IMG/VR virus record: IMGVR_UViG_3300032083_001576
Span: 1 to 64,000 of that record
Direction: 5' to 3' (one strand)
DNA from: a virus
Length of the DNA: 64,000 bases
The notes under the pieces: model-generated
The model's input: the letters and a program-made list of their open reading frames with translations, nothing else
Database searches by the model: none
Told to the model about the DNA's origin: nothing
Position numbers and translations under genes: made by a program
In this document: one piece after another, positions 3,162-53,915 of the stretch
Position numbering within the stretch: the first letter of the stretch is position 1
How the letters are laid out: every line of letters begins with the position of its first letter

Positions 3162-3389
3162 TTATTTTACCTCTTGCCAATTTCCTGACTCTTGGACTAT
3201 TCCAGCTATAGCTTCGAACTCACTTTTTACTTCATTAAAAAGATTGATTTCATTATAATCACCATCAATATTTTTTGATTTTTTACCTTTTGGCACAAAC
3301 ACCGATTGGTCTAATTTATCATACATTGAATCTAATGCGTTTTTGATTATCTGTATTTGGTCGTAACCTTCTTTACTTATCTTTGACAT
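3162..3389 (-). CDS. Hypothetical helical protein (75 aa)
   Basis: Starts MSKISKEGYDQIQIIKNALD and looks mostly alpha-helical, with a central basic loop (VPKGKKSKNIDGD). No cysteines or signal peptide. It abuts the next gene directly and overlaps the previous one by 17 bases. No domain is recognised. Confidence 0.55.
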   Translation of the reverse strand: MSKISKEGYDQIQIIKNALDSMYDKLDQSVFVPKGKKSKNIDGDYNEINLFNEVKSEFEAIAGIVQESGNWQEVK

Positions 3390-3588: not shown

Positions 3589-4024
3589 TTATTTGTATCC
3601 TTATATTATCTAACCATTGGTTATCATATTCATCATAATACACAACCCAAATGGTTGCAATCTGTCCTATGTTTTCTTCCATTACTCCCATCATTTGATA
3701 AGCGTAACCATCATCTGATGAATAACCACTACCATTAACAACAGGTATATCTTCACAAAAATCCCAAGTACAACCTTCAAAAGTCACATCAGTAACCCAT
3801 TCTACATATTCATACTCATAACCAATGTATGCCCGTAATTGTGTAAATGTTTGTATAGAACCCTCATTAAAATCCAAATGATAAACACCATCTTTATCCA
3901 TTGGTAAATCTGGTGCTTCTATATTTAAATAACAATAATCACAGCTAGAATTTGGATTATCACAACCAATAAACAACATACTGATTATGTATATAAATAT
4001 ATATTTAATTATATTTCTCATCAT
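3581..4024 (-). CDS. Phage-encoded lipoprotein
   Basis: The 147-aa protein begins with a basic residue, a hydrophobic stretch (IIKYIFIYIISMLF) and the lipobox LFIGC, with the Cys at about residue 21. That predicts signal peptidase II processing and lipid anchoring. The mature part is acidic and aromatic, with two further Cys pairs (CDYCYL; FEGCTWDFCED) that could form disulfides in the periplasm. AAGGA precedes the first ATG, and a strong sigma70-like promoter lies 30-60 bases upstream, so it is probably made early. Known phage lipoproteins include superinfection-exclusion proteins and spanin subunits. The early promoter favours exclusion, but this is inference. Confidence 0.75.
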   Translation of the reverse strand: MMRNIIKYIFIYIISMLFIGCDNPNSSCDYCYLNIEAPDLPMDKDGVYHLDFNEGSIQTFTQLRAYIGYEYEYVEWVTDVTFEGCTWDFCEDIPVVNGSGYSSDDGYAYQMMGVMEENIGQIATIWVVYYDEYDNQWLDNIRIQINE

Positions 4025-52646: not shown

Positions 52647-52904
52647 CTATTTTATAAAATCACTTAATTTGTATTTACTAAGTTTCACTTTTTTTCCTAA
52701 ACCAAACTTTTTTCTATATGCATTTATTCCATCTTCTATATCTTGAACACCTCTGTTTAAATCTTTAAATCCAGACATTATTTTTTTGTCTTTTCTGAGT
52801 AGTTTTTCTGCTTTGGAAGGAAATCCTAATAATCTAGCTAATTTACTAAAGAAGTTTTCAGCTAAGATGTTTTCATTATTCATATATGATTTTTTCTTTG
52901 ACAC
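52647..52904 (-). CDS. Hypothetical virion-region protein, GTG start (85 aa)
   Basis: AGGAG lies six bases before GTG 52904; the ATG in the same ribosome-binding region belongs to another frame and stops at once. A later ATG at residue 8 is possible but lacks a site. Content: NNENILAENFFSKLARLLGF, then a basic helix and SGFKDLNRGVQDIEDGINAY. The 'NILAENxxR' start occurs in several T4-like structural proteins. A late-type motif is 29 bases upstream. Confidence 0.6.
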   Translation of the reverse strand: MSKKKSYMNNENILAENFFSKLARLLGFPSKAEKLLRKDKKIMSGFKDLNRGVQDIEDGINAYRKKFGLGKKVKLSKYKLSDFIK

Positions 52905-52960: not shown

Positions 52961-53200
52961 TTATCTTTTAAATCTTGGATTGATTGATGGTTTTGATACC
53001 TTTGACCTTTGATTAGCTTTTTTGATTTGTTCATTTTCTTTTGTACGAGTATCTGATAATTGTTTATAATAAAAATTCCTTAAATATACAGGCATATTAT
53101 ATACATCGGAATGAATAAATCCCTTACCATAATACATTAATTGAAAAATTTGCTCGTGAAGTTTTGGTTTATCTTGAGGCGTCAGGCCAAAAAAACCCAA
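52961..53200 (-). CDS. Second tail-chaperone frame, probably made by frameshift (GT-like, 79 codons)
   Basis: The frame opens after a stop at 53206-53204 and overlaps the end of the upstream chaperone gene in the +1 frame. It has no ATG until codon 22; the first possible start is TTG at 53200 without a good ribosome binding site. Its first residues (GFFGLTPQDKPKLHEQ) mirror the upstream frame (VGFFWPDAS) because both read the same T7 run. The rest is QLMYYGKGFIHSDVYNMPVYL and a basic tail. Position between a G-like chaperone and the tape measure is exactly that of gpT in lambda. It would be expressed as a fusion. Confidence 0.72.
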   Translation of the reverse strand: MGFFGLTPQDKPKLHEQIFQLMYYGKGFIHSDVYNMPVYLRNFYYKQLSDTRTKENEQIKKANQRSKVSKPSINPRFKR

Positions 53201-53915
53201 CCGTCATAGGTATATCAACCTTGACGGACTCCCCTTCTATTTCTATTTCTTGAGATAATTCAATATCAGGTGTTACCTCTCTGATTTCACTTCTTAAATG
53301 CATTGAATCTCTTGCGAGTAAATTTTGAACAAAGTTATTTATTGTAGCTTGTGAATCATCACCATCAACTGATATAATGGTGTGTCTTAACCTTGTAGTT
53401 AATTCAGGTTTTACCTCAGCATTAATTTTTTCTGAAGCTTTTAATTCTTCATTTATTAAAATTTCCTCTTTACCAGTTAATAACTTAAATGTTACTTTTT
53501 TCTTTGATATTGGTAAAGTAACTTCAAATTTATTCTCTGTAATTTCATTAGGTACTTTTTTAAATGGACAATCCGCTAAATTAAAAGTTTTGTTTATTTT
53601 TTTACCTGTTGGAGTTGTTACCTCACAAGTGTATTCTGGACCATAGGCCAAAACTCTAGCCGCTACCATTACAGCATTTTTGTCACCTAATATTAAATCA
53701 TCTGATTTAACACCAGGTGTTAAAATTAAAGAATCCATTAATCTATCAATCACCACACCTTTTTTAATTAAATTCTGTGATGTTAGAATATCCTCTTCTT
53801 TAGCCGTCATATATTTAATTTCTATTTTTCCATTAGAACAAGGATGTTCTTTTGGATATAACTTACCTTCACTTGGTAAATCAATCATTTCACTTGGGAA
53901 TTTGTTCTCTGACAT
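53169..53915 (-). CDS. T4-type baseplate/tail-assembly chaperone protein (PF12322-like)
   Basis: 248 aa. PSEMIDLPSEGKLYP, IEIKYMTAKEEDILTSQNLI and LLARDSMHLRSEIREVTPDIEL are diagnostic of the family annotated as T4 base-plate protein in T4-like phages, which shares its genome position with tail chaperones. It is predicted to act in tail-tube and tape-measure assembly rather than to remain in the virion. The frame ends MTVGFFWPDASR; a T7 run just before could move ribosomes to the next frame. A gp26/gp51 assignment is possible but not proven. Confidence 0.8.
   Translation of the reverse strand: MSENKFPSEMIDLPSEGKLYPKEHPCSNGKIEIKYMTAKEEDILTSQNLIKKGVVIDRLMDSLILTPGVKSDDLILGDKNAVMVAARVLAYGPEYTCEVTTPTGKKINKTFNLADCPFKKVPNEITENKFEVTLPISKKKVTFKLLTGKEEILINEELKASEKINAEVKPELTTRLRHTIISVDGDDSQATINNFVQNLLARDSMHLRSEIREVTPDIELSQEIEIEGESVKVDIPMTVGFFWPDASR
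53189..53198 (-). other. T7 slippery run, candidate +1/-2 frameshift site
   Basis: The minus strand reads GGG TTT TTT TGG in the chaperone frame; a one-base forward or two-base backward slip on TTT lets the tRNA re-pair perfectly and enters the downstream frame (GGC CTG ACG CCT). This is the only region where the two frames are both open. Confidence 0.6.

Follow-up and report, generated by a model that had tools for sequence, protein, structure and literature searches.

In lambda-type G/GT systems, a short tail assembly chaperone (TAC) and a minority frameshift fusion are encoded between the tail tube and tape measure genes (Levin 1993; Xu 2004, as summarised in PMC5009743). Lambda and most of the others shift −1; a +1 TAC shift was thought very likely in the archaeal myovirus HSTV-2 (PMC5009743), and PRFect made use of 350 annotated forward cases (PMC10885494). 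To judge from its citation in PMC10885494 and PMC12846349, G/GT-type −1 frameshifting, yielding TAC-N and the fusion TAC-NC, was proposed for T4-like groups by Vladimirov, Gautam and Davidson (2022), and separate genes are reported for some T4-like phages (PMC10885494). The subject of the present analysis is a locus in a 64,000-nucleotide stretch of viral DNA (positions 1 to 64,000 of IMG/VR record IMGVR_UViG_3300032083_001576, hereafter the window), in which two overlapping frames of this chaperone family appear to be joined by a +1 shift, with an mRNA hairpin upstream of the slip site. The locus resembles that of lambda in gene position and in that the two frames overlap by a few tens of bases where the short gene ends, but differs in the direction of the shift and in carrying an upstream hairpin instead of downstream signals. 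With the T4-like TAC-N/TAC-NC pair it shares the chaperone family PF12322 (T4 gene 26) and the C-domain (cyanophage 'gp51'), whereas the T4-like groups shift −1, mostly at T_TTT_TTC (cyanophages, Schizotequatrovirus, Angelvirus and Rhizobium phages), and the shift here would be +1 at the equivalent Phe-Phe position. The initial annotation of the window did not know the G/GT logic to be established in T4-like phages; it had in fact already been proposed, as −1, and the case described here is most probably +1.

The RF2 gene (prfB) undergoes a +1 frameshift at CUU_UGA, with an internal Shine-Dalgarno sequence 3 nt upstream. A YUU_U P-site slip and a 5' stimulator would be common to RF2 and the present locus, but RF2 has a stop codon in the A-site and a Shine-Dalgarno sequence, whereas here there is neither, and an mRNA hairpin lies where the 5' duplex would act. 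Refolding hairpins placed just 5' of a site favour +1 over −1 in 70S and 80S tests (PMC6321510, PMC3639245), as is envisaged here; those tests employed designed constructs, whereas the present hairpin is a natural, covarying phage candidate.

The TAC-N gene of the window ends ATG ACG GTT GGG TTT TTT TGG CCT GAC GCC TCA AGA TAA, and a second frame, open from 53203 to 52961, lies in +1 (equivalent to −2) relative to it, with an overlap of 35 nt. Past the run of seven T residues (T7), the +1 frame reads GGC CTG ACG CCT CAA GAT AAA (the shift being GGG TTT TTT T|GGC), such that the codons of the slip site are TTT TTT TGG CCT in the 0-frame and TTT TTT/GGC CTG in the +1 frame. The second frame has no ATG ahead of its domain core, the first Met being that in ...FQLMYYG..., and a mechanical open reading frame (ORF) caller lists it as 52961-53200 because of an in-frame TTG at 53200. 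The 3' end of the gene, the frame open from 53203, its +1 relation, the lack of an ATG and the GGC CTG ACG that follows T7 had all been described in the initial annotation and hold on direct reading, while the fusion of about 320 residues that it anticipated amounts to 242 + 75 = 317 by +1 translation. The site itself, TTTTTTTGGCCT, is present as a single copy in the whole 67,012-base virus record, and the codon before T7 is GGG, which is seldom used for Gly there (2.9 per thousand versus 40.8 for GGT).

Relatives of both halves were gathered from IMG/VR, GenBank phages and bacterial contigs (numbered with the prefix L below). The first two scans employed peptide patterns that touch the slip site; in the third scan, the alignment was cut ahead of the site in order to remove this ascertainment effect. 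Comparison of homologues, which the initial annotation had suggested, revealed that the T-run and the +1 overlap are conserved: every one of the 154 loci in which both halves were present, the window included, had the second frame in +1 and overlapping the first, and the frame was +1 also in all 48 new loci from the site-blind scan, making 202 of 202 loci in which both domains were found. The 12-nt site was identical in 139 of the 154 loci, the remainder having one or two substitutions or an ACCCT form; variants in this set comprised TTTTTTTACCCT, TTCTTTTGGCCT, TTCTTTTACCCT, TTTCTTTGGCCT and single changes in CCT, to which the site-blind set added TTTTTTTTCCCT and TTTTTTTGGGTT. Interrupted T-runs (TTTCTTT in 6 loci, TTCTTTT in 5) keep the frame relation. 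The second frame has a median dN/dS of about 0.40 past the stop codon of the first gene, indicative of purifying selection. Further to the 48 site-blind loci, L185 has an intact slip site, but its chaperone gene, intact in other respects, is interrupted approximately 50 bases upstream of that site by a nonsense codon, an in-frame TAA at about 3179-3181, which may represent an error or a decayed copy.

T-runs are error-prone in some sequencing methods, and the initial annotation had recognised that T7 might be a sequencing error. However, the same arrangement recurs in about 200 separately assembled loci, among them those of the named phages Microcystis phage Mel-JY01 and Flavobacterium phage Immuto and variants lacking a T7 run, and this conservation refutes chance or a sequencing or assembly artefact at the homopolymer, the probability of which is considered negligible. 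Separate translation of the second frame, with ribosomes reinitiating at a codon other than ATG close to the stop of the first gene, could make use of the TTG noted above, and some ATG, GTG or TTG is present ahead of the domain core in 72 of 126 distinct loci. Nevertheless, 54 of the 126 have no such codon and 110 have no ATG, such that a second frame with its own ATG, envisaged in the initial annotation as contrary evidence, is not the rule; the candidate codons are not at a conserved position, there is no Shine-Dalgarno pattern, and reinitiation does not explain the near-invariant slip site. It is regarded as highly improbable. Instead, the conserved site, the frame relation and both proteins lend strong support to programmed recoding that joins the two frames, as had originally been suggested.

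With regard to direction, the variants of the site are better explained by a +1 slip at YUU_U than by either −2 or transcriptional slippage. TTC accounts for 23% of the Phe codons in these genes and would be expected at the second Phe codon in 31 of 126 loci, but was seen there in none, and was found at the first Phe codon in 5 of 126. CTT occupies the second Phe codon in six loci (five of them in the site-blind set), which have the exact CTT_T of RF2, and each of the 172 distinct sites counted in the clade of the window has YTT followed by T in phase, as in the CUU_U of RF2. Four distant +1 relatives, namely SP-15 (TTT TTT CAC), SagM-GXN1 (TTC TTT CGT), LIS04 (TTT TTT AGT) and LR756508 (TTT CTA TTC), do not all keep YTT-T in phase; their sites are compatible with tRNA-Phe moving +1 on UUU_Y at one or other Phe codon. 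A −2 ribosomal frameshift on the T-run, by which the fusion would be one Phe longer, leads to the same frame as +1 and is permitted by T7, and there are known precedents for −2 at some GUU_UUU sites (PMC10885494). In the TTC TTT T variants, however, the second codon would land on TCT, which is unreadable by tRNA-Phe, and duplexes upstream of a site promote +1 and counteract backward movement (PMC6321510). Thus, where the initial annotation had allowed a +1 or −2 slip, +1 is the most probable, whereas −2, for which re-pairing fails in these variants, appears very unlikely. Inspection of the 20 nt upstream for a Shine-Dalgarno-like stimulator gave no strong match in most loci, with AGGAGG matches weak at most, and RNA structure downstream of the site was not above background.

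A hairpin upstream of the site, absent from the initial annotation, was found in the follow-up analysis. The stem in the window has a folding energy of −13.3 kcal/mol (z −2.77), with a gap of 5 nt to T7. When compared with dinucleotide shuffles, the 60 nt ahead of the T-run had a mean z of −2.05 (101 loci), with values of −0.5 to +0.2 for downstream and control stretches. With a synonymous-codon shuffle, which preserves the protein and the codon usage of the gene, the last 36 nt (−36..−1) had a mean z of −2.61 across 145 loci, 57% of which fell in the lowest 1%, versus mean z values of −0.16 and +0.08 for control stretches elsewhere in the gene. Among 65 related loci, 89.3% of cells pair versus 81.0% when shuffled, and the covariation score is 0.318 versus 0.153 (0/500); a pair formed by two third codon positions occurs as CG in 22 cells, GC in 13, UA in 11 and AU in 4, together with five G-U cells. 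In a second subclade, the 3' arm keeps its position but pairs with a different 5' arm; this hairpin is 100% paired with a covariation score of 0.402 versus 0.197. The subclade members were selected for pairing there, and only their covariation counts as evidence. A search of Rfam returned no match at E values up to 1.

The presence of a hairpin next to a T-run also bears upon stem-loop-mediated transcriptional slippage, the strongest rival in our ranking, in which the polymerase would drop one U at T7 with the help of the nascent hairpin and normal translation would then give the fusion. In a Roseiflexus IS630-type element, a 5' adjacent RNA stem-loop is described as making RNA polymerase omit one base at T5C5 (Penno et al. 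2015, as presented in PMC5009743), and the hairpin and T7 here have the same layout and the same net frame. The stem-loop 5' of the site is common to both; the run is T7 in most of the present loci, TTTCTTT or TTCTTTT in 11, and absent from L161 (LR756508), a +1 relative with a strong hairpin (z −4.0) and only TTTCTATTCCC. The hairpin is significant in four of the six TTTCTTT loci (L199, L201, L213 and L239) and is kept in the interrupted-run locus L098, while the five TTCTTTT loci keep the frame relation. Longer runs, which slip better, are avoided: the base ahead of T7 is T in 1 of 126 +1-clade loci and, in the 102 loci where the codon could end in T, 61 would be expected and 1 was seen. Similarly, TTT TTC T was never seen and TTC TTT T was, even though the longest run of the former is longer. 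Finally, a terminator scan at the site detected no intrinsic terminator, the stem-loop of the window not being terminator-like. Transcriptional slippage is therefore judged unlikely, albeit less so than the other alternatives. Loci L236 and L248 (site TTTTTTTTCCCT, T8) have no upstream hairpin and may slip differently, for example on the polymerase.

Considered as a whole, the sequences probably reflect a +1 ribosomal frameshift on YUU_U, with a refolding upstream hairpin as forward stimulator, that yields both TAC-N and TAC-NC. We infer that the shift takes place on the ribosome, that its efficiency is such that most ribosomes would keep frame and make the 248-aa TAC-N, and that the hairpin influences its direction. 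A minority would slip one base forward on YUU_U in TTT TTT TGG, the peptidyl-tRNA-Phe re-pairing from UUU to UUU, to make the 317-aa TAC-NC. The stem-loop, the 3' arm of which ends 4-5 nt ahead of the T-run, would refold behind the ribosome and, by pushing on the mRNA, direct the slip forward, much as the internal Shine-Dalgarno duplex of the RF2 gene does, while the lack of a T ahead of the run would remove the U_UUU_UUU alternative that favours −1. In an E. coli 70S extract, a refolding upstream hairpin had approximately 60% of the +1 activity of the internal Shine-Dalgarno sequence on CUUUGA, and −1 was attenuated (PMC6321510).

Several observations weigh against this interpretation. The effect of the hairpin in the published extract required a stalled (RF2-free) A site (PMC6321510), and the 0-frame A-site codon here is TGG, TAC or TTC rather than the stop codon of RF2. 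The hairpin lies 7-8 nt from the second Phe codon, compared with 3 nt for the RF2 Shine-Dalgarno sequence; with a slip at the first Phe codon the spacing would be 4-5 nt, and either codon may be the one that slips. About 40% of loci have no significant hairpin (e.g. L002, L109, L126, L134 and L248), and it is therefore common but not essential everywhere. Moreover, RNAalifold with default scoring predicted no structure from the widest alignment, of 65 rows. The hairpin was missed there owing to three loci that adopt another register, and is recovered with RIBOSUM scoring or once loci in another register are left out. Lastly, the loci are kin, and the probabilities quoted are not independent.

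The homologous −1 sites were sampled from cyanophages, Schizotequatrovirus, Angelvirus, Ackermannviridae, Rhizobium and Agrobacterium phages, a Vibrio phage and a Pseudomonas phage. In these T4-like phages from outside the +1 clade, TAC-C lies in −1, mostly with TTT TTC at the equivalent Phe-Phe position; cyanophage loci scored −1 in 79 of 80 cases and +1 in none. In contrast to the +1 clade, the base ahead of TTTTTC is T in 80 of 80 cyanophage −1 sites, giving T_TTT_TTC, and the upstream hairpin is absent from these 80 loci (mean z +0.25, 1% in the lowest 1%). In L165 (LR756511.1, a 595-kb uncultured phage; 3660-3956), TAC-C is in −1 at GGT TTT TTC TTC, whereas TAC-N is nearer the SP-15-like +1 group; either the direction changed more than once, or L165 lies outside the +1 group. 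On this comparison, the direction appears to switch inside the wider chaperone family. A bolder proposal, and one that we put at somewhat less than an even chance, is that, throughout a large lineage of phages, a natural 5' hairpin chiefly drives a sense-codon +1 shift, with neither stop codon nor Shine-Dalgarno sequence, and that this shift arose by turning round a homologous −1 site, T_TTT_TTC becoming V_TTT_TTT_T with an added hairpin.

By sequence comparison, the products of the first and second frames are the N and C domains of a tail assembly chaperone (TAC-N and TAC-C). TAC-N matches Pfam PF12322 (E 1.6e-6, 28.4 bits versus a cut-off of 24.5) and PHROG 150 'baseplate hub' (E 5.9e-11). 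Its AF2 model has a pLDDT of 89, with residues 240-248 unstructured, and a Foldseek comparison with the PDB gave no significant match, 3klu (YqbN; probability 0.20) being a lead at most. The TAC HMMs had no significant match in the T4 26/51 region, and homology to T4 26 therefore rests on Pfam. TAC-C is a small helical domain (AF2 pLDDT 82) that matches, profile to profile, the TAC-C found in −1 in other T4-like phages (probability 83%, E 8.5e-6), and three of 23 TAC-C members match PHROG 634 'baseplate hub assembly catalyst', the cyanophage 'gp51'. A search of NCBIfam yielded nothing useful. By analogy with lambda G/GT and from T4-like homology, TAC-N and TAC-NC would have a role in tail building. 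The existing annotation is also corrected, in that these 'baseplate hub' genes are probably tail chaperones, the second half of which has been missed or mis-started in database records. In L002 (NC_055915.1, Flavobacterium phage Immuto; 5949-6255) and L162 (SP-15; 3590-3913), TAC-C is annotated as truncated hypothetical proteins of 36 and 39 aa, and the frameshift is unannotated. Contigs with phage chaperone genes (L247-L258) have been binned as Flavobacteriales, Saprospiraceae, Winogradskyella, Thaumarchaeota and a 2.8-Mb WOR-3 'chromosome'; the majority are likely to be binned phage contigs, the WOR-3 'chromosome' being possibly a prophage or a misassembly.

The features of the locus are listed in Table 1. 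As in G/GT systems, TAC-N and the overlapping second ORF sit between the tube and tape measure genes, with a lysozyme gene intervening after the tube; this GH108/endolysin-like gene may encode a tail lysozyme. The order given in the initial annotation (sheath, tube, lysozyme, chaperone, GT frame, small gene, tape measure) was confirmed, although the match to tape measure proteins is weak (PHROG E ~7e-4) and the 588-aa ORF is best described as a probable tape measure gene.

Table 1. Features of the chaperone locus and neighbouring genes in the window
Feature	Position	Strand	Basis or remark
TAC-N, short tail assembly chaperone, PF12322 'T4_baseplate', 248 aa	53169..53915 (ATG at 53915, last base 53169)	minus	Pfam, PHROG
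TAC-C, +1-frame C-domain after slip, 75 aa, stop 52963-52961	52961..53188	minus	dN/dS, profile match
Predicted TAC-NC fusion, 317 aa	52961..53915	minus	Inferred; translation with one base skipped
Overlap of both open frames, 35 nt, in which the shift must fall	53169..53203	minus	Sequence and ORFs
Slip site TTTTTTTGGCCT, T7 = 53195-53189	53184..53195	minus	Conservation over 12 nt
Spacer UUGGG, hairpin to T7	53196..53200	minus	Last base before T7 avoids T in relatives
mRNA hairpin 5' of slip site, CCGUCAAGGU-UGAUAU-ACCU-a-UGACGG	53201..53227	minus	Folding energy, covariation, codon-shuffle control
Sheath	57347-55092	minus	Gene order
Tube	54975-54487	minus	Gene order
GH108 lysozyme	54396-53917	minus	Between tube and TAC-N
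Small ORF, 85 aa, no confident family	52647..52904	minus	Between TAC-C and tape measure
Probable tape measure protein, 588 aa	50871..52637	minus	PHROG 167 tape measure (E 6.6e-4) and position

In literature that covered few subscription journals, we found no description of a TAC site with a hairpin upstream, nor of a direction switch between homologues; both the natural hairpin-associated +1 TAC site and the switch look new. Homologous sites in one gene family would thus be set to −1 or +1, with the base ahead of the run, the last base of the run and the upstream hairpin as signatures, providing a natural system, open to direct tests, in which to ask what determines the direction in which ribosomes slip, and possibly a natural case of a mechanism so far shown on designed constructs. 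Seven of the 12 bacterial contigs with a chaperone gene are labelled Bacteroidota, the ribosomes of which largely ignore Shine-Dalgarno sequences. If many of the hosts are Bacteroidota, the hairpin may serve in place of the RF2-type duplex.
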